In this document: positions 30,040-42,244 of the stretch, one piece after another
How positions within the stretch are numbered: the stretch's first letter is position 1
How the letters are laid out: each line of letters opens with the position of its first letter
Assembly: GCA_028821605.1 (NCBI GenBank)
Contig: JAPPFM010000007.1
Span: 1-64,000, forward strand
Reading direction: 5' to 3'
DNA: 64,000 bases
Source of the DNA: Candidatus Poribacteria bacterium
GTDB taxonomy: Bacteria > Poribacteria > WGA-4E > WGA-3G
Program-made: the position numbers and the translations under genes
The notes under the pieces: model-generated
What the model saw: only the letters and a program-made list of their open reading frames with translations
Database searches by the model: none
Told to the model about the DNA's origin: nothing

Positions 30040-30621
30040 TCAGTTTTCATTGCGAGCGTTTATTTCCATTAGTTTTTCACGTGCCAATATTTCAAAAACT
30101 GGCATCACTCTTTCGACGAGTTCGGCGTGTCGTCCAGACAAGCGATCATGTGCTGTCTGGAGTGCCTTGTGTTCTCTGGTGAGAGCATCGAGCCCGGCTC
30201 GGAGAGTCGCGTTTTCCTCTTTCAAGATTTCGTGTTCTTGCTGTAGGGCGTTATACCGCTGGTCAGCGGCACTTTGAAAGTTGCTAAACTCTTGCTGTAG
30301 GTTTTCGTGTTCTTGCTTTAGGACGTTATACCGCTGGTCAGCGGCACTTTGAAAGTTGCTAAACTCTTGCTGTAGGTTTTCGTGTTCTTGCTTTAGGACG
30401 TTATACCGCTGGTCAGCGGCACTTTGAAAGTTGCTAAACTCTTGCTGTAGGGTGTTATACCGCTGGTCAGCAGCACTTTGAAGGTCGATAAGTTCCTGTT
30501 GAAGTGCGTTGTATCGTTTGTCTTCGCGCTTTTTGACGATCCATCCAGTAGCCGCGGCAATTACGCCGAAGCTAAATATCCCTATATCTATGAGACTGAT
30601 TGTAGCCCAACTGAAATCCAT
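30040..30621 (-). CDS. Membrane-anchored coiled coil built of tandem repeats
   Basis: 193 aa. An N-terminal hydrophobic segment (about 9-28) anchors a long coiled coil. The coil is made of AADQRYN...LQQEFSNFQS units: the DNA repeats with a 75-base period at 30249, 30324 and 30399, then 54-base steps at 30453 and 30507. The 75/54 difference is exactly one 7-residue heptad (21 bases), so copy-number or heptad changes keep the coil in register. Expected to sit at the inner membrane with the coil in the cytoplasm. No known family. Confidence 0.8.
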   Translation of the reverse strand: MDFSWATISLIDIGIFSFGVIAAATGWIVKKREDKRYNALQQELIDLQSAADQRYNTLQQEFSNFQSAADQRYNVLKQEHENLQQEFSNFQSAADQRYNVLKQEHENLQQEFSNFQSAADQRYNALQQEHEILKEENATLRAGLDALTREHKALQTAHDRLSGRHAELVERVMPVFEILAREKLMEINARNEN

Positions 30622-33995: not shown

Positions 33996-35045
33996 CTACC
34001 AATTGTCCCTTGTGACATAGAGAGAACGGTTTTCCATGGGGAGTGAGATGTGCTTACCGCCAAGCCGATGCGATTCGATCATACCCATGAGCGTCTCTTG
34101 ACTGCGACGTGCGAGATGAACGGGTCCCTTGGTCTCGCGGTCCTCATCGAGTGCTTCGGCGATGTCGGTGATTCCCATAACGGTGCCTGTAGCGCGGGAT
34201 GTTTCTGGAAACGGCACCTCTTCAAAGAAGGTCCCATCCTTTTTTCGGAACTGGATTTCTCGGCTGTTATTCTGAATGCGGATTTTGCCGCCGGTGCCAC
34301 AGACCTCGTATTCAGGGCCTGTACCTGCGGTATTATAACCGTGGACCCCGTTGGAGTAACGGATGTAACCACAAGCAATCCCCGGATCGACATTCAGACG
34401 ATTACCGTCCCAATCTGAATCATTGCATATAATCGCACCTACCACGAAATCGACCTCTGGGTCACCCGCGAGGAACAGGAGCATATCAGCAGCGTGCGTC
34501 AAACCCCAGAGGGCAGAACCCGCACCGTATTGTGCGATGGAGCATTGGACATCACCGATTTCGCCAGCATCCACGAGTTCTCGTACTTTGCGATAAATCG
34601 GCATGTAGCGGCGCTGCGTCCCGTAGTTGAACTTGACACCGTGCTTTTGAACGATGTCTACCATGATGTCCGCCTCTTCCATAGAACAGCAGAGCGGCTT
34701 TTCGCAGTAGATACCCTTGACACCGTTTTCAGCAGCGAAGACGGTCATGTCGGCGTGGGGACCGGGACGTGTGGCGATACAGACGATGTCGGGTTTCTCC
34801 TTTTCGATCATTTCCTGGTAGTCTGTATAGGCACGCTCGGCTCCGTAACGTTGTCTGATGGTTTCGGCTTTCTCTTCGAAGACATCGGAGACAGCGACGA
34901 GGTCTGTTCGTTCGCAAGCGACAGCTGCGGCAGCGTGCGAAAAGGGCTGCCATATAAAACTATCGGGTCTGCCTGCGACTTCGTCGTCGATCGTTGCGCC
35001 CATCCGTCCGCATCCAATGAGACAGGCTTTGTATGTCTGTGGCAT
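33996..35045 (-). CDS. Gfo/Idh/MocA-family oxidoreductase
   Basis: 349 aa NAD(P)-dependent dehydrogenase of sugar or cyclitol type. N-terminal Rossmann ACLIGCGRMGATIDDE, the family YCEKPLCC motif near residue 120 whose Lys is catalytic, and a C-terminal beta-sheet domain. It is the last gene of a minus-strand cluster (34-42 kb) with two more Gfo/Idh proteins, three PhyH oxygenases and a sulfatase-fold enzyme, which suggests breakdown of a substituted sugar or osmolyte. Substrate unknown. Confidence 0.88.
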   Translation of the reverse strand: MPQTYKACLIGCGRMGATIDDEVAGRPDSFIWQPFSHAAAAVACERTDLVAVSDVFEEKAETIRQRYGAERAYTDYQEMIEKEKPDIVCIATRPGPHADMTVFAAENGVKGIYCEKPLCCSMEEADIMVDIVQKHGVKFNYGTQRRYMPIYRKVRELVDAGEIGDVQCSIAQYGAGSALWGLTHAADMLLFLAGDPEVDFVVGAIICNDSDWDGNRLNVDPGIACGYIRYSNGVHGYNTAGTGPEYEVCGTGGKIRIQNNSREIQFRKKDGTFFEEVPFPETSRATGTVMGITDIAEALDEDRETKGPVHLARRSQETLMGMIESHRLGGKHISLPMENRSLYVTRDNW

Positions 35046-35587: not shown

Positions 35588-35911
35588 CATTAAAAGATTT
35601 ACCTTTCATTGGATCTGCGTTCCTTGCTATATGTTATCAAAACCGAGAACCCTTGTCAAATTCATTAAAGGGCCTTTCGGTCCGGTTCGGAAACCGCACC
35701 ATAGGTGTCAATTTAGGGATTTTTCGGTTAATTTTTCGCGGTAGATCTCTATAGATGCCGCCCCTACGGGGCTTGATTTATGGGGTTCACGCTTTTCTAC
35801 AGAGATACCGCCCCTATGGGGAAACCAAAGAGCAATTTGAGTTGTAGGGTTTCTATCTCAGGTCCGGTGCGGTTGCAAACCGCACCTACCGTGATTGGGA
35901 AAGTCTAAAAA
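35588..35911. other. Gene-free region with small direct repeats
   Basis: Holds two copies of a TCTA(T/C)AGA...CCGCCCCTA(C/T)GGGG unit (near 35746-35770 and 35798-35822) and two copies of a GGTCCGGT(T/G)CGG ... AACCGCACC unit (near 35675-35705 and 35859-35890). No gene seen. The GCCCC...GGGGC palindrome style also appears at 35068-35080. Confidence 0.6.
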
Positions 35912-37378
35912 TTACTCACCAGTATAGAGTTTTCCGAAATATGGACGGAAGCCTGCAGGTCCGGGAAAACCGTTCCAGTAGGTGGCATCGGCGGGGAAAG
36001 CATCTTCACCACCACTACGGAGCCATGCCATGAGTGCAGGATCGGTACCGCGACGTTCGATTTCATCAACGGCAGCGGCGTGCAGTTTCGCAACGACATC
36101 CGGATGTTCGTTGGCAACGTCGTCTAATTCGCCGAGTCGGACGAGTTTTGAATTTTCAGGTGTCGTACCGACCTCTAAACTCCACTCACGGTCGAAAGCG
36201 GTGAAGAGGTTGAGATTCGGATTCTGTGTGCTGTTTTCCCATCGCTCGATACTTCCGCCTGAGAGGGCAAGCTGCCTTTCACCAGTTTCTCCGCTGCGTG
36301 CAGGGGTTAAAATGTCATGTCCCTCAATGCCGTCAGGACGTTCCTCACCTAAGATGTTAAGAATCGTCGGGAAGAAGTCCTGTGGTTGGACGATGACATT
36401 GCTTCTTCCCCCACCTTCTTCGCTGTCCCCATCTGGGAGCCGAATAAAGAGCGGGACATGTGCCTCCTGCTGACGCACGGGTTGTCCTTTGCCAAACCTA
36501 CCGCGTTCACCGACATTTGTGCCGTGGTCCGCGGTAAAGATGACAGCCGTGTTCTTATCAAGCCCAGTGGACTCAAGAGCATCAAGGAACTGTCCGAAGC
36601 AGTGGTCCATCCATGTCGTTTTAGCGGCGTATTGCGCTTTGATGTGTTGTTTCGCTTCATCTGAGAGTTCCGCATTGCCCCGTGCACCGAGACTGCGTGG
36701 ATCGACACGTCCGTCATAGCCGGGACGGGTATCGTATTTCTTCATGAACTCAAGAGGTGCATCCCAAGGTTCATGTGGATCAAAGCAGTCTACCCAGAGG
36801 AAAAAGTTGTCTCGTTTGGCGTTATCTTTGAGGAATTGCGCAGCGGTGTTGAAGAGTTTTGCGCAGTTCCAGTCTTCCGGTTTCTTTCGGTTTCTATTTG
36901 CGCGTGCGTAGCTGCGGAGCATTCCCGATTCAGCGGCTTTGTCGTCAATGCAATCGAAAAGTGGTTGTCGGGTCCAGTTGTCGGGCCATGCTACAGTATC
37001 GGTGATCCAATCTCTATCGACTTCTGCGCCGCGAACGAATGTCCATGCGTGGAAGGGCCAGTCGAAGTTATGTCCACCATTGACGAGATGCGGTGTATCG
37101 TGAATGAGTTGTGTCGCGTAGCCGTTTCCTGCGAGTGTCCACGGTAAGGTTTGACGTTCGTGGCGGAGTGGTTTCCAAGGGTGGAAGGGGGCACCGTATT
37201 GTCCAGTGATGACATCCGTCCGATAGGGGATCGTTGGAAAACTGGCACAGAAAGCGTAGTCGAATGCCAAGGCTTTGGAAGCAAACCGATCGATGTTGGG
37301 TGTTTCTATCCAGTCATTTCCGTTTGCACCGATGTAGTCGTAGCGGAGTGTATCAATAACAATGTAAGCGAGATTCAT
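35912..37378 (-). CDS. Sulfatase-fold hydrolase with Thr at the formylglycine site
   Basis: 488 aa of the alkaline-phosphatase/sulfatase superfamily. Metal-binding starts with VIDTLRYD (Asp9), and FTADHGTNVGERGRFGKG near residue 295 supplies Asp-His ligands and a Lys. In sulfatases the segment before the TG turn is (C/S)-x-P-x-R, whose Cys/Ser becomes formylglycine; here it reads TIPYR (49-53) before TDVITGQ, so Thr49 occupies the nucleophile position. Thr nucleophiles are known in phosphodiesterase branches of this superfamily (for example NPPs), so a phosphodiesterase or phosphonate ester activity is possible. No signal peptide is visible, so it appears cytoplasmic. Confidence 0.8.
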   Translation of the reverse strand: MNLAYIVIDTLRYDYIGANGNDWIETPNIDRFASKALAFDYAFCASFPTIPYRTDVITGQYGAPFHPWKPLRHERQTLPWTLAGNGYATQLIHDTPHLVNGGHNFDWPFHAWTFVRGAEVDRDWITDTVAWPDNWTRQPLFDCIDDKAAESGMLRSYARANRNRKKPEDWNCAKLFNTAAQFLKDNAKRDNFFLWVDCFDPHEPWDAPLEFMKKYDTRPGYDGRVDPRSLGARGNAELSDEAKQHIKAQYAAKTTWMDHCFGQFLDALESTGLDKNTAVIFTADHGTNVGERGRFGKGQPVRQQEAHVPLFIRLPDGDSEEGGGRSNVIVQPQDFFPTILNILGEERPDGIEGHDILTPARSGETGERQLALSGGSIERWENSTQNPNLNLFTAFDREWSLEVGTTPENSKLVRLGELDDVANEHPDVVAKLHAAAVDEIERRGTDPALMAWLRSGGEDAFPADATYWNGFPGPAGFRPYFGKLYTGE

Positions 37379-37542: not shown

Positions 37543-38289
37543 TTACCATTTTGGGATTGCGCCGAGCAAGAGTTGTTGTTGTGGGGTCCCCTCTTCTCGG
37601 AGTTTTGTGACGCGAGGACCGTCGAAAGGTTCTCTCGATTTCATCCACGCGTTTTGATAGCACATGAGGCAGACACGGCGACGTTGTGAGGAATTGTTAG
37701 CAGCACCGCGATGCCACGTCCATCCATCGAACATAACCGCTTGTCCAGGGGAGACGAGTACCCGTTTCTCATCGGGCAATTCGACAGGCGTGGGCGGTGG
37801 ACGGAAGGGTGCCCTATGGCTGCCGGGTTGGACAACCGTGGGACCGTTTTCGTCGCTAACTTCGTCAAGATAATAACCGCAATTAATCTGTGCTGGGAGA
37901 CTCCCGTAAGGTGTTCCGTTCGGTGCGATGGGCCAAGGACCGTCGCGATGCCAATGCTGATCTGGCGTTCCGGGTTCGGTGATACGTGCTGTCGCGCTGT
38001 GGAGTTGGACACAGGTGCCTAATATGGCTTCCATCCGTTTTAGAACGGGCGGGTTGTCTAACAGAAATGCGAACCGATCGTCCTCCTCAAGGAGCTCACC
38101 GATGAATTGACTTTTATTGTTGCGTTCGTAACTTTCATCAAGTGCCTCGCGCAACGACTCGATCTGTTCCGGTGTTGCAGCGTCGTCAACGATGAGATAC
38201 CCCCAATTGAGGAAGAAGTTAACCTCTTGTTGTAGGTGGTGATCCAGTTCGACATTGAGTGTTGATGGCACTACGCTCGGACTTGCCAT
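37543..38289 (-). CDS. PhyH-family 2-oxoglutarate/Fe(II) dioxygenase
   Basis: 248 aa. Metal triad His114-Arg-Asp116 in QHWHRDGPW and distal His193 in WTWHRGAANN; the Arg run at 203-205 can bind 2-oxoglutarate. QPGSHRAPF is the usual loop. The next upstream gene (another PhyH, 38293-39117) ends only 3 bases before this start, so both are in one transcript. They share only the fold, so they are likely to act on different steps or substrates. Confidence 0.88.
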   Translation of the reverse strand: MASPSVVPSTLNVELDHHLQQEVNFFLNWGYLIVDDAATPEQIESLREALDESYERNNKSQFIGELLEEDDRFAFLLDNPPVLKRMEAILGTCVQLHSATARITEPGTPDQHWHRDGPWPIAPNGTPYGSLPAQINCGYYLDEVSDENGPTVVQPGSHRAPFRPPPTPVELPDEKRVLVSPGQAVMFDGWTWHRGAANNSSQRRRVCLMCYQNAWMKSREPFDGPRVTKLREEGTPQQQLLLGAIPKW

Positions 38290-38292
38290 GAA

Positions 38293-39117
38293 TTATCCCT
38301 CCTTAATTGCCTCTTGGTCGGCGGTTGCCCATTCTTCCCAACGTTCTTCATCGGAGCTGAGGAAGCCGGAGTTGCATCGCGGTTGAAGTTGCTCATCTAC
38401 ACCGAGGAGCCGCATGTGTTGATGATTATTGGCGGCTTTTGCGGCTTCCAACAACTTTTGGGTATGCGGACCCGTGTGATGGTCGGTGTGTTTCAGCCAT
38501 GTCAGGTTGTAGTAAATGCTGAAGAAATAGCGTAACTTGTCCGAAGTATTCGGTGTGCCAGAATGGATGAGTCCGTTGTGTGTGATGACGACATCACCGG
38601 CTCCCATGTGGATCAGCGTCTCGTCAGGATGTGGTACCCCACGTTCCGAGTCTTCCATAGTAAGGGGTTTCCGATGCGAACCGACAATGACGCGAAGGGG
38701 TCCGAATTCATCCGTCAAGTCTTGCAGATAGGAGATAGCGTTGATGGCGTTCGGTCGGTGATACGCGTCGGTGAAGGGAACGTGTGCCCACCGGTCGCGA
38801 TGCCAGCCAGAGACCCTACCTTCCGCTTTCTCTTTTTCCATCGGTGGAAACGCTGCGAGCGTAAGATTGTCTAATTGCACGAAGGGTCCCATCACTTTTT
38901 CTAAAAACTCAAGGATTATCGGATGCGAGACGGCGGGCCACATTAATTCAGGTGCTAATTCGAGTGTGTTTCCGAACCATGTCTGCTCGTCGTTGGCTGC
39001 GGAGAGTTCCGCGTGTTTCTCGCGCCAACTTTGCATCTGCGGTTCATCAAAGACTTTTTCAAATATTGCAAAACCGTCGGTCTTATAAGCTTCAAAGCGT
39101 TCGTCTAATGTTGGCAT
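38293..39117 (-). CDS. PhyH-family 2-oxoglutarate/Fe(II) dioxygenase
   Basis: 274 aa from the ATG at 39117, which has AAAGGAAA just upstream; the TTG at 39135 would leave no ribosome site. Metal triad His106-Arg-Asp108 (GWHRDRW) and distal His185 (NGLIHSGTPNTS), with Arg196 for 2-oxoglutarate and VGSHRKP between them. It sits between a Gfo/Idh dehydrogenase and a second PhyH gene. Confidence 0.88.
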   Translation of the reverse strand: MPTLDERFEAYKTDGFAIFEKVFDEPQMQSWREKHAELSAANDEQTWFGNTLELAPELMWPAVSHPIILEFLEKVMGPFVQLDNLTLAAFPPMEKEKAEGRVSGWHRDRWAHVPFTDAYHRPNAINAISYLQDLTDEFGPLRVIVGSHRKPLTMEDSERGVPHPDETLIHMGAGDVVITHNGLIHSGTPNTSDKLRYFFSIYYNLTWLKHTDHHTGPHTQKLLEAAKAANNHQHMRLLGVDEQLQPRCNSGFLSSDEERWEEWATADQEAIKEG

Positions 39118-39272
39118 TGATTTCCTTTCAAGCAATTTTCAATCTTAGGACTTGTGCAAAATCCCATTGTTTGCTTACAGGATTGGAAGACTGGAATATT
39201 GGAAGGTGTGGTGGAGGTCCCCATCCTTCCTCGCCTTCCATCCTTCCGATCTCCCACAGAACGTGAAATTTC

Positions 39273-40214
39273 TCAACGCAGTCCATTTAGGATTGCCTCG
39301 GCGAGCTCCATGGTTTTAACAGCTTCGTCAAGGTTGGCGGCGGGAAATGAAACAGGCGTGTCAGATTTGACACAGTCTAAGAAATACCTGTTCTGCTCGA
39401 CGGTGCCGCCCGTGCCTGCTTGGGTAAGTTTGTGTTGCGTGCCATCACAGAAAACCGTTCCTTGGGAGACACCTTCGAGGTAAGCGGAGATATCTCTGCC
39501 GTGTATCTCATAGCGTTCGAGGCGTGCATCTGTCGTGTAATTAGCGATGTGTTGAGCGACACACCCGTTATCGAACAGAATGAGTGCAGCGTGGACATCT
39601 TTATAATCTGAAATCGCTCGCTGCACGACACTGTGGACTTCTTGGACATCCGCTTCGGCGACCGCCCGGATTGTATCAAGCGCGTGGATCGGTGTTTCCA
39701 GAAACATGTTGTCCATCAGGTGTTCTGGAAATCTGCCTGTCAGTCGTGTAATGCTTTTGTGGAATTCGCCGACGATTTGTGTGACGGGACCGCGTGCGGT
39801 GACCTGTCGTTTCGCTTCAACGATGATCGGATGAAAACGGCGGTTCCAGCCCACCATCCCTTTCGCACCTGTCCGTTTTGCAGCACTCTGCAAAGCGACC
39901 GTTTCTGAGACGCTCATGCCGGGTGGTTTTTCCAAAAGCGTATGGACACCACGTTCAAAACACGGAAGTGCCGCCTCGCCGTTGAGGTGTGCAGGTGTCG
40001 CGACAAAGATGGCATCTAAGGTTTCGCTGTCTAACAATGCCTCAATGCTCTCGTAGCGGTTTGGAACATTGAACATCTCTGCAGCGTTGTTTCGCGCTGC
40101 TTCAACGGGATCGCACACAGCGACGAGAGCAGTGTCGTCAAATTCTGAGAGGATTTTTAAATGACCGCGACCTCTACCGCCGCAACCAATGACAGCAACT
40201 TGTAGTTTCGACAT
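39273..40214 (-). CDS. Gfo/Idh/MocA-family oxidoreductase
   Basis: 313 aa. Rossmann start VAVIGCGGRGRGHLKIL, ATPAHLNGEAALPCFE, and LLEKPPGMS with the catalytic Lys. Shorter than its two neighbours of this family and clearly a different subgroup. Expected to oxidise a sugar or inositol-like hydroxyl using NAD(P). Member of the 34-42 kb catabolic cluster. Confidence 0.87.
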   Translation of the reverse strand: MSKLQVAVIGCGGRGRGHLKILSEFDDTALVAVCDPVEAARNNAAEMFNVPNRYESIEALLDSETLDAIFVATPAHLNGEAALPCFERGVHTLLEKPPGMSVSETVALQSAAKRTGAKGMVGWNRRFHPIIVEAKRQVTARGPVTQIVGEFHKSITRLTGRFPEHLMDNMFLETPIHALDTIRAVAEADVQEVHSVVQRAISDYKDVHAALILFDNGCVAQHIANYTTDARLERYEIHGRDISAYLEGVSQGTVFCDGTQHKLTQAGTGGTVEQNRYFLDCVKSDTPVSFPAANLDEAVKTMELAEAILNGLR

Positions 40215-40360: not shown

Positions 40361-41149
40361 TTAGTGCCGTATGTGGGGTGCCTCCATGACTTCTCGCTGT
40401 TCAGGAGACATGTCCTCAATGTAATCGGGATACGTAACCTGATGTGCCCCTGTGCCATAAGACTGGAATCCAGGACTGAACTTGTAGAGCAGCGCTCGCC
40501 GTTGATGGCTGCCTTTCCACGGAAGCGTGCCGTGTGTCAAGGTTTCAGTGAAAATCACTGCATCGCCAGCCTTGGCATTGACTTCAAGCACCAGATTCTG
40601 ATATTGTTCGTATCGTTTCATGCTGCTGGGACAGGGAAGGTTCGCTTTATGGCTGCCTGGGACAATAGCCAAACCTCCATCGCCGGGGCCCTCGTCAGCG
40701 AGCATGTATTCGACGACAGTCAAACCTGTGTATATGCGTCCGTATTTGAAGAAATAGGCTTCGGAGAAATTCGGACGTTCGATCCCACCACCGTGTAAAG
40801 TGCCACCTTCCGTGCCTTTTTCCATAGCGATTAAGCCCGGACCATGATCAAGTCGATATTTTTGCCCTAAAATCTCTTCCAGGCAGGGTTTAATCTTGGG
40901 ATGGATGAGCAAATTTCGGAACTGTTCACACCAAGGTTTCTCCCAAGCGAGCATGCCCCCCATGTCCATTCGGTGCGCCGTGCCAGCAAGTGCCGCTGAA
41001 CCGCCTGCCAAAGAGGTGTCGCGTTCCCTGAGTCCTTCGATGTGATGGTCAATGGCAGCGTTGCACTGGGCGACTTCGTCTGCCGTCAAAGCGTTTTCGA
41101 CGATGATGTATCCGGTCAAATCGAAGAGGTACTTTTGATCTTCGTTCAT
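40361..41149 (-). CDS. PhyH-like protein with His-Gly-Gly instead of HxD
   Basis: 262 aa of the PhyH family by overall layout (DLTGYIIVENALTADEV start, VPGSHKANLP loop, distal His206 in TLTHGTLPW, Arg217/218). Where the HxD metal motif is expected the sequence reads His119-Gly-Gly (TLHGGGIER), so the metal-binding carboxylate is missing. In Fe/2-oxoglutarate halogenases the Asp is likewise replaced by Ala or Gly to admit chloride, but other PhyH-like proteins with this change are uncharacterised. The gene follows a Gfo/Idh gene by 33 bases and precedes another. Confidence 0.8.
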   Translation of the reverse strand: MNEDQKYLFDLTGYIIVENALTADEVAQCNAAIDHHIEGLRERDTSLAGGSAALAGTAHRMDMGGMLAWEKPWCEQFRNLLIHPKIKPCLEEILGQKYRLDHGPGLIAMEKGTEGGTLHGGGIERPNFSEAYFFKYGRIYTGLTVVEYMLADEGPGDGGLAIVPGSHKANLPCPSSMKRYEQYQNLVLEVNAKAGDAVIFTETLTHGTLPWKGSHQRRALLYKFSPGFQSYGTGAHQVTYPDYIEDMSPEQREVMEAPHIRH

Positions 41150-41182: not shown

Positions 41183-42244
41183 CTACGACTTTGCTTCTTC
41201 AATGCTTTGAGGTCTACCGGTTGCGTCACCTCCGAGCCATCGGTAGGGACGTGGGTAGAGTGCTAAAGATCTGTCTTCAAGTGGTAGTTTAATGGGTACG
41301 CTGTTTCGGTTTGCGGAGAGTTTCGCAGCGATAGCAACTTCCAATGCCTGTCGGAGGTCTGCGCCTGTAATCCATGGTTCTTCGTTGCCATCAACAGCCG
41401 ATAAAAAGGAGCGGATGGAACCTGTGAGATAACTGAATTCGCTCCACGAATAGGGGCTATAGTTGGGTTCAAGTCGAATACGATTGCCGTGCGGGTCGTA
41501 GTTTTTGAAAATCTCTGGAGGGTTCCAATCCCAGCGGACAAGGCATTCGTCTGTCCAAACGTCTACGCCGCGGCACGATGTTGGTGTTCCGAAGACACTA
41601 CATTCTAAACCGTTTGAAAGATAAAAGCGTCCGTTGATGATTAAGCCTTCATCGGTTTCGGCACTTAGGGCTTCAGGCGGTGTTCCCCACGCGATGACTT
41701 CCTCAACTTCGGCATTTGTGAAAAGTCTTAGTACAGAGATGTGCTGGCATCCACCACCGGAGATTTCACCACCAAACCCGTGAACACTTGCGCCTCTAAT
41801 GTTCCCAAATTCACCCTTGTGCAGGCGAGATGCGGCTTCCTGAACTTCATTCATAGCGCGTTGCAGGTTGCCTCCGGCAAATACTATATCGCGTTCAGCA
41901 CACGCTTCAACCATCGCGTCGGCATCTTGCAAGCGTGCGGCGATCGGTTTCTCCGTGGAGATGCCTTTAACACCGGCTTCCGCACATGCAATCACGACAT
42001 CTTTCATGTATTTCGTGGGCGTGACGACCACTGCGATATCCGGCACCATATCCTTCAATAAGGTTTCTACATCTGGGTAGAGGGCAGCGACACCGAAACG
42101 CGTGCCGAGGACACCCCGCCGTTGTGTATTGGCATCAACAATTGCAACAATTTCTGTGTCGGGATAGGTGGTGTATGCTTCTGCATAGTTCTGCCCCATC
42201 CGTCCACAGCCGATGATGGCTACTCGATATTTGGTGTCACTCAT
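41183..42244 (-). CDS. Gfo/Idh/MocA-family oxidoreductase
   Basis: 353 aa. VAIIGCGRMGQNYAEAY Rossmann start, VVTPTKYMKDVVIACAEAGVKGISTEKPIAA with the catalytic Lys, and a second domain with CSVFGTPTSCRGVDVW. First gene of the minus-strand cluster. It is 33 bases ahead of the PhyH-like gene with the altered metal site, so the two are likely co-translated and may act on the same compound. Confidence 0.88.
   Translation of the reverse strand: MSDTKYRVAIIGCGRMGQNYAEAYTTYPDTEIVAIVDANTQRRGVLGTRFGVAALYPDVETLLKDMVPDIAVVVTPTKYMKDVVIACAEAGVKGISTEKPIAARLQDADAMVEACAERDIVFAGGNLQRAMNEVQEAASRLHKGEFGNIRGASVHGFGGEISGGGCQHISVLRLFTNAEVEEVIAWGTPPEALSAETDEGLIINGRFYLSNGLECSVFGTPTSCRGVDVWTDECLVRWDWNPPEIFKNYDPHGNRIRLEPNYSPYSWSEFSYLTGSIRSFLSAVDGNEEPWITGADLRQALEVAIAAKLSANRNSVPIKLPLEDRSLALYPRPYRWLGGDATGRPQSIEEAKS

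Follow-up and report, generated by a model that had tools for sequence, protein, structure and literature searches.

A sulfatase-like protein with threonine at the formylglycine position in Candidatus Poribacteria

INTRODUCTION

What does a protein with the fold of a sulfatase do when the Cys or Ser of the (C/S)xPxR motif, the precursor of formylglycine (fGly), is replaced by Thr? The question is raised by a gene in a 64 000-nt stretch of Candidatus Poribacteria DNA (GCA_028821605.1, contig JAPPFM010000007.1, positions 1 to 64 000; hereafter the window). A preliminary description of the gene, made from the sequence, had pointed out the Thr and suggested a phosphodiesterase that resembles a sulfatase.

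Sulfatase numbers serve to infer a diet of sulfated polysaccharides in uncultured marine lineages, and counting by pfam 00884 has been carried out for another candidate phylum (PMC4454575). A 2016 report states that PF00884 holds Thr proteins that are not to be taken for sulfatases, amounting to 30 of the 59 seed sequences and exemplified by the TXNXE group (PMC5066984). A sulfatase count with purpose-built HMMs is reported to contain five with Ser among 2040 (PMC6388578). A search of the open-licence literature by titles and abstract openings found no description of sulfatase-like enzymes with TxPxR or of the family described here. The superfamily is a common subject in studies of how phosphate and sulfate transfer evolved.

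RESULTS AND DISCUSSION

Protein and predicted fold

The gene (Table 1) encodes a protein of 488 aa that scores 143.7 bits against PF00884 (Sulfatase), for which the curated cut-off is 25. Four NCBIfam models matched the protein, all below their cut-offs; the best was PRK13759 (136.2 versus 481 bits), and the phosphonate monoester hydrolase model PehA gave 99.2 bits against a cut-off of 900. The nearest named relatives of the gene are Candidatus Poribacteria records. In an AlphaFold model of the protein (pLDDT 89.7, pTM 0.92) the N-terminus is the first core strand (residues 2-8), with no N-terminal transmembrane helix and, by eye, no signal-peptide-like stretch.

Table 1. Positions in the window of the gene, its predicted active-site codons and the neighbouring genes
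Feature	Position	Strand	Basis
Thr-nucleophile sulfatase-like hydrolase (predicted)	35912..37378	minus	488 aa, ATG start, ORF exactly these bounds; PF00884
Codon of Asp9, predicted metal ligand	37352..37354	minus	D in 39/39 Thr rows, 19/19 family Cys rows, 9/9 ordinary sulfatases
Codon of Thr49 (ACG), predicted nucleophile	37232..37234	minus	Alignments, conservation, AlphaFold model
Codon of Arg53, Arg of (C/S)xPxR	37220..37222	minus	R in 39/39 Thr, 19/19 Cys, 9/9 ordinary rows
Codon of Asp94, column of sulfate-binding Lys	37097..37099	minus	Family rows and ungapped IDS alignment
Codon of His97, aligned with His three residues past IDS Lys (taken as H138)	37088..37090	minus	H in 28/39 Thr, 19/19 Cys rows
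Codon of His202 (FDPHEPW), general-acid His of sulfatases	36773..36775	minus	H in 39/39, 19/19, 9/9 rows
Codons of Asp284-His285, predicted metal ligands	36524..36529	minus	Same residues in each of the 67 rows
Codon of Lys297, partner of general-acid His	36488..36490	minus	K in 37/39 Thr, 19/19 Cys, 9/9 ordinary rows
Gfo/Idh/MocA oxidoreductase, next downstream, 866 bases off	33996..35045	minus	PF01408
PhyH family dioxygenase, directly upstream	37543..38289	minus	PF05721
PhyH family dioxygenase	38293..39135	minus	Pfam
Gfo/Idh/MocA oxidoreductase	39273..40214	minus	Pfam
PhyH family dioxygenase	40361..41149	minus	Pfam
Gfo/Idh/MocA oxidoreductase	41183..42244	minus	Pfam

The predicted fold is that of the sulfatases. 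With the model as query, the top structural matches were sulfatases and phosphonate monoester hydrolases, which ranged in VIA Z from 34.9 to 29.2 among the matches listed. They included family S1 fGly-sulfatases (ulvan sulfatase 6hhm, Z 34.9; iduronate-2-sulfatase 5fql, Z 34.3; choline sulfatase 6fny, Z 31.6) and phosphonate monoester hydrolases/phosphodiesterases of S1_0 (4uph, Z 33.7; 2w8s, Z 33.3; 2vqr, Z 29.3). The best Foldseek match among those listed was EfAS, a manganese-dependent arylsulfatase of Enterococcus faecium (9koq, 4.2e-24). The proposed phosphodiesterase identity was not upheld by this ranking; no entry described as an NPP was among the best 50 matches listed in each of two fold searches, an absence that carries no weight by itself. 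The only apparent tie to known phosphodiesterases is one local Pfam match to PF01663 (31.9 bits, residues 249-287 only).

The phosphonate monoester hydrolases of S1_0 resemble the protein in having no second N-terminal Asp, and their residue at the position of Asp94 (see below) is presumably Tyr. They provide a phosphoesterase precedent on the shared fold. They are reported to use fGly made from Cys (PMC5066984), where the protein has Thr49.

Thr49 in the nucleophile position

The motif reads P48-T49-I50-P51-Y52-R53, with T49 as the first residue of helix 49-58 in the AlphaFold model. A PF00884 search of the gene's own genome gave 49 matches, some of which are pieces of one gene, and 47 ORFs were aligned. 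After removal of one truncated fragment and two duplicates 44 distinct genes were counted, excluding three weak matches (L148, L149 and L150) that show no match to the query gene. T49 aligned with the Cys column of these proteins, in which 36 genes have Cys and eight have Thr. That other genes of the genome might share the Thr had been anticipated in the preliminary description, and it proved correct: five of the eight belong to the gene's own family, and three more (L009, L025 and L145) lie outside it and have TTSAY, THPAH and TRPSH in place of TxPxR. A PF00884 count would give this genome 44 sulfatases, but at most 36 of them can be fGly enzymes, the other eight being without the fGly precursor.

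The same column was examined in 117 distinct rows comprising relatives and some neighbouring sulfatases, and contained Thr in 102, Cys in 13 and a gap in two. Among the 79 orthologue-like rows it was filled in 78, every one with Thr, encoded by ACC (28), ACG (21), ACA (16) or ACT (13). The occurrence of Thr in all 78 rows with all four codons shows that the residue is constrained and is not a base error; the reading frame at TIPYR, for which a check had been advised, is thus genuine, and an error of sequencing or frame there is ruled out. Cys44 and Ser46, named earlier as possible true nucleophiles, were also considered and rejected. Neither aligns with the nucleophile Cys column of sulfatases. 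In the orthologue-like rows position 44 is variable (C 61, A 11, S 4, L 2), and Ser46, present in 78 of 78 such rows, is Ser in 26 of the 39 Thr rows of the wider family, the rest being mostly G, A or C. This conservation of Ser46 among the orthologue-like rows is all that favors an ordinary sulfatase whose motif is in error or whose nucleophile is Cys44 or Ser46, and against the evidence above we regard such an explanation as negligible.

The claim that Thr stands in for the fGly Cys or Ser is therefore borne out by both alignments, and classical sulfatase action is impossible for a protein with Thr in place of the fGly precursor. An aligned and conserved Thr would instead suit the nucleophile slot of NPP phosphodiesterases, members of the alkaline phosphatase superfamily in which a Thr nucleophile is followed by x-Pro. 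The NPP motif is TxPxH versus TxPxR in our protein, and the second metal site of NPP consists of Asp-x3-His plus a later His. Unlike NPP, the protein keeps the sulfatase-type Lys297.

The remaining active-site residues

Residues were compared in three classes: Thr members of the family (39 rows), its Cys members (19 rows) and nine ordinary Cys sulfatases (Table 1). The active site of IDS is reported to contain D45, D46, C84, R88, K135, H138, H229, D334, H335 and K347 (PMC5472762). We took D45, R88, H138, H229, D334, H335 and K347 to match Asp9, Arg53, His97, His202, Asp284, His285 and Lys297, respectively, the N-terminal part of the pairing coming from direct alignment and the rest from family columns. 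The protein differs from IDS in having Thr49 for C84, Thr10 for D46 and Asp94 for K135, and consequently has neither a residue that could become fGly nor the sulfate-binding Lys.

Asp94 pairs with IDS K135 in an ungapped stretch of the phmmer alignment, while a profile alignment with 7oz8 instead gave a gap at this position. The position is also taken to match K110 of EfAS. By column, D20, R65, H220, D311, H312 and K324 of EfAS have counterparts in the protein, while C61 and K110 are opposite Thr49 and Asp94 (PMC12421950). K135 of IDS is described as orienting the metal ligand D45 and binding sulfate (PMC5472762), and mutant K110A of EfAS is reported to have lost all activity (PMC12421950). 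Column 94 is Asp in 241 of 243 family rows (Ser in two) and Lys in 52 of 61 lower-scoring rows. In a 68-row alignment it is Asp in 37 of the 39 Thr rows and all 19 Cys rows, and Lys in all nine ordinary sulfatases. Since Asp94 is common to Thr and Cys members, it is by itself no mark of phosphate chemistry.

The N-terminal motif reads D9-T10-L-R-Y-D14, with Thr10 in place of the second Asp of classical sulfatases. The single N-terminal Asp noted in the preliminary description is real, but it is of no use as a clue, because the second position in the nine ordinary Cys sulfatases varies as well (Q in five, E in two, D in two).

Loss of the fGly precursor is a usual mark of a pseudoenzyme, and the protein could have the fold of a sulfatase but serve in binding or regulation without catalysis. 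We consider this quite improbable: the Thr, metal ligands, Arg and His are conserved and the Lys nearly so, and a neighbouring gene is retained in 44 of 54 orthologue loci. With Thr49, D9, R53, H202, D284 and H285 fixed and K297 nearly so, an active enzyme seems likelier than a relic.

LtaS and EptA are Thr transferases, and the single-metal set of Asp, Thr, Asp and His that we infer for the protein resembles theirs. A structure described as an E. coli domain, which we take to be YejM (5i5h), was among the listed fold matches at Z 30.1. Both points would suit a phosphoryl transferase or mutase, in which a donor phosphorylates Thr49 and the group is passed to a sugar or alcohol and not to water. 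Enzymes of the LtaS and EptA types and the TXNXE group share PF00884 and Thr in the nucleophile slot with our protein. They differ from it, however, in that the protein has TxPxR, keeps the sulfatase Arg and Lys and has a sugar-catabolic context; LtaS and EptA are membrane proteins, while the protein starts at the core strand without a membrane segment, and its neighbour genes suggest catabolism. A transferase thus appears improbable.

A family with three nucleophiles

On sequence grounds the 488-aa protein is a member of a distinct sulfatase-like family, which we name the Asp94 family. It is defined by Asp in the Lys column, at least 250 bits to a profile (A1; 46 rows, built from Thr rows) and membership in one clade, all of which hold for the protein. 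From 342 loci 308 distinct rows were collected. The 243 rows at or above 250 bits have Thr in 200, Cys in 40, Ser in one and a gap in two, a ratio of Thr to Cys that is biased by the origin of the profile in Thr rows; of the 61 rows scoring between 100 and 250 bits, 58 have Cys, two have Thr and one has a gap. In a 68-row tree computed without the active-site columns the family forms one clade (support 100/100). Within it lies a 23-row subclade (support 100/99) of 19 Cys rows and four Thr rows (L223, L225, L292 and L321).

L223 and L225 share 68% identity with a Cys row, and the single Ser row (L305) shares 61% with a Thr row. When the Thr rows were forced into one clade the tree was rejected (AU p 5.3e-6). 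This rejection seems to rest on the four Thr rows inside the Cys subclade: a single Thr clade was not rejected (AU p 0.5) once these four, L288 and L305 were removed. In a quick 126-row tree, from which an identity filter had beforehand removed L223, L225 and L292, the long-branched Thr row L288 fell outside the family with ordinary sulfatases (support 85). Because members with different nucleophiles are so close and one subclade is mixed, the tree indicates that the nucleophile has changed more than once within the family; the AU tests fit either order, Thr first or Cys first.

The Asp94 family thus shows that a change of nucleophile is possible without rebuilding the active site. The Thr/Cys (68%) and Thr/Ser (61%) pairs are matched natural pairs for the effect of such a change on substrate choice.

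Gene context

The Thr gene and the PhyH gene directly upstream of it probably form one operon. Among 54 orthologue loci (at least 70% identity), a gene like this PhyH gene lies directly upstream in 44 and a Gfo/Idh/MocA gene is next downstream in 31. Distant relatives adjoin genes for alginate lyase, SMP-30, enolase-superfamily, Ldh_2 and Gfo/Idh/MocA proteins, and the combined context suggests sugar catabolism. Because PhyH and Gfo/Idh/MocA are very broad families, the context indicates carbon catabolism and not one substrate. At one locus (L113, 5770-8001) a single open frame of 744 aa combines alginate lyase and PhyH domains.

In the gene's own genome, a Thr paralogue with TLQIR (L346, 5384-7556, contig C36) lies directly downstream of a gene of the HUMPS/OMPdecase family, with the two frames overlapping by 8 bases and a Lyase_1 gene further upstream. 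The HUMPS/OMPdecase family acts on sugar phosphates. Across the other Thr paralogues of the genome there was no common neighbour theme, sugar-phosphate context included.

Two other features of the window were also noted. The gap downstream of the Thr gene contains, at 35746-35821, two 26-nt repeats that are 50 nt apart and 81% alike, with the core CCGCCCCTAYGGGG. In a minus-strand ORF at 30040-30621 a coiled-coil-like unit (QQEFSNFQSAADQRYN...) recurs in several near-identical copies.

Cys members and fGly-maturase-type genes

Four planctomycete genomes (G121, G175, G141 and G236; loci L371, L377, L378 and L400) carry two Asp94-family members side by side on the same strand, a Cys gene and a Thr gene. 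In three of the four pair loci the Thr partner was absent from the ORF list, overlapping frames having been filtered out. In the three genomes measured, the paired genes are 30 to 32% identical to each other and 65 to 82% identical to their counterparts in other genomes.

Sugar ABC or PTS gene sets surround ten of the 18 plasmid Cys loci (L356, L357, L359, L360, L362, L363, L364, L367, L368 and L370). We also looked for fGly-maturase-type genes, where 'FGE' denotes similarity to PF03781-type proteins and the maturase role is putative. Such genes were found near 7 of 38 Cys loci (6 of 18 on plasmids and 1 of 20 in genomes), near none of 24 Thr loci (19 genome, 4 paralogue and 1 plasmid) and not near the single Ser locus, a contrast that is confounded by unequal flank lengths and by plasmid loci from other phyla. 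For genome loci alone there was no difference (Cys 1/20 versus Thr 0/19). One of 74 loci in the series L061-L134 has a maturase-type gene, with an ordinary Cys sulfatase beside it. In three of the six maturase-bearing plasmid Cys loci another sulfatase is near too; since L356, L357, L361 and L386 have a second sulfatase nearby, only L355, L360 and L370 clearly implicate the Asp94-family member.

In the last of these, on a Serratia entomophila plasmid (L370, 1720-10642), the Cys member lies downstream of a PTS EIIBC gene and has as neighbours a radical-SAM sulfatase maturase, DUF202 genes and a TauE-family gene. The cluster looks like one for cytosolic sulfo-sugar catabolism. Maturase-type neighbours, and the TauE-family gene in Serratia, suggest that sulfate esters are the substrates of some Cys members at least. 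An argument that the substrate must be a phosphate ester because one family contains both Cys and Thr was dropped, as Cys members occur near maturase-type genes. The view that Thr marks a non-sulfatase holds as far as the fGly precursor is replaced, but the family unexpectedly has Cys members, some of them near maturase-type genes, and Thr therefore marks only part of it.

A proposed mechanism

We believe that the protein is a cytosolic, single-metal phosphoryl hydrolase with a Thr nucleophile that acts on a sugar-derived compound, and give this reading a probability of roughly 55%. What the analysis establishes directly is the sequence and its conservation, the fold as predicted, the place of Thr49, the make-up of the family and the gene context; the metal, the nucleophilic attack, the phosphoryl and sugar nature of the substrate and the cytosolic site are inferred. 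The enzyme would be soluble and probably cytosolic. One divalent metal would be held by Asp9, Asp284, His285 and Thr49, with Arg53 orienting the active site, and the unmodified Thr49 alkoxide would serve as nucleophile in place of formylglycine. It would attack a sugar-derived metabolite at the phosphorus of its phosphate (or phosphonate) ester, while the His202-Lys297 pair would protonate the leaving group, a role that has been proposed for the His-Lys pair of choline sulfatase (PMC5870055). The phospho-threonine intermediate would then be hydrolysed by water, and the PhyH and Gfo/Idh/MocA enzymes encoded nearby might oxidize the released alcohol.

The main reason for preferring a phosphoryl substrate is that plain Thr lacks the hemiacetal step: in sulfatases the covalent sulfo-enzyme has been proposed to break down through cleavage of the fGly hemiacetal (PMC5870055), and Thr, if oxidized, is reported to give a ketone and not fGly (PMC5066984). 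The proposed reading as a whole is also favored by Asp94 at the place of the sulfate-binding Lys, the sugar-catabolic context and the HUMPS/OMPdecase neighbour of a Thr paralogue. Retention of most of the sulfatase kit counts against a phosphoryl hydrolase, as may the Cys relatives, which are possibly sulfatases.

These same observations lend something to a sulfatase or sulfotransferase with plain Thr, in which sulfate is transferred to Thr and then passed on or slowly hydrolysed. The sulfatase Arg53 and His202 are kept, as mostly is Lys297; some Cys members are near maturase-type genes; and in the four genomes with adjacent Cys and Thr genes both enzymes may act on one sulfated compound. The fGly route of sulfate release is closed to Thr, however, and with the sulfate-binding Lys absent as well we consider sulfate chemistry unlikely.

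More tentatively, the Asp94 family could be one scaffold that has switched more than once among encoded Thr, fGly-type Cys and Ser with the rest of the site fixed. Thr and Cys members might divide phosphate-type and sulfate removal between them in one sugar pathway, as with the adjacent genes, and Asp94 beside Asp9 might shift the Thr enzymes toward the two-metal chemistry of alkaline phosphatase.

Distribution of the family

Matches at E 1e-82 or better, with Thr and Cys members pooled and only the best candidates per genome scored, were present in 82 of 84 genomes of the gene's own phylum, 54 of 101 of Armatimonadota (the phylum of L124, by its record), 22 of 199 of Planctomycetota (that of L127) and 3 of 96 of Kiritimatiellota (that of L131). 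In the phylum of L112, 53 of 64 genomes had matches at E 1e-74. In the same genus as the window, one relative of the gene (G002:C77:18177-19373) is broken by two in-frame stops.

Nineteen plasmid loci were examined, of which 18 have a Cys member and one, in Martelella mediterranea, has a Thr member. The existing annotation of the 19 genes is 'sulfatase' in 18 and 'sulfatase-like hydrolase/transferase' in one. The Thr member (WP_236953515.1) belongs to a cultured strain, DSM 17316, so that the question of its function is open to direct test. The plasmid Cys members include those of Rhizobium, Paenibacillus, Streptomyces, Enterobacter, Serratia, haloarchaea and an E. coli record. This last record (CP088669.1, L359), a 730-kb 'plasmid', has the Cys family member and PTS genes amid potFGHI and artPQMJ, which we take to be normally chromosomal in E. 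coli, and it may be a mislabelled piece of chromosome.
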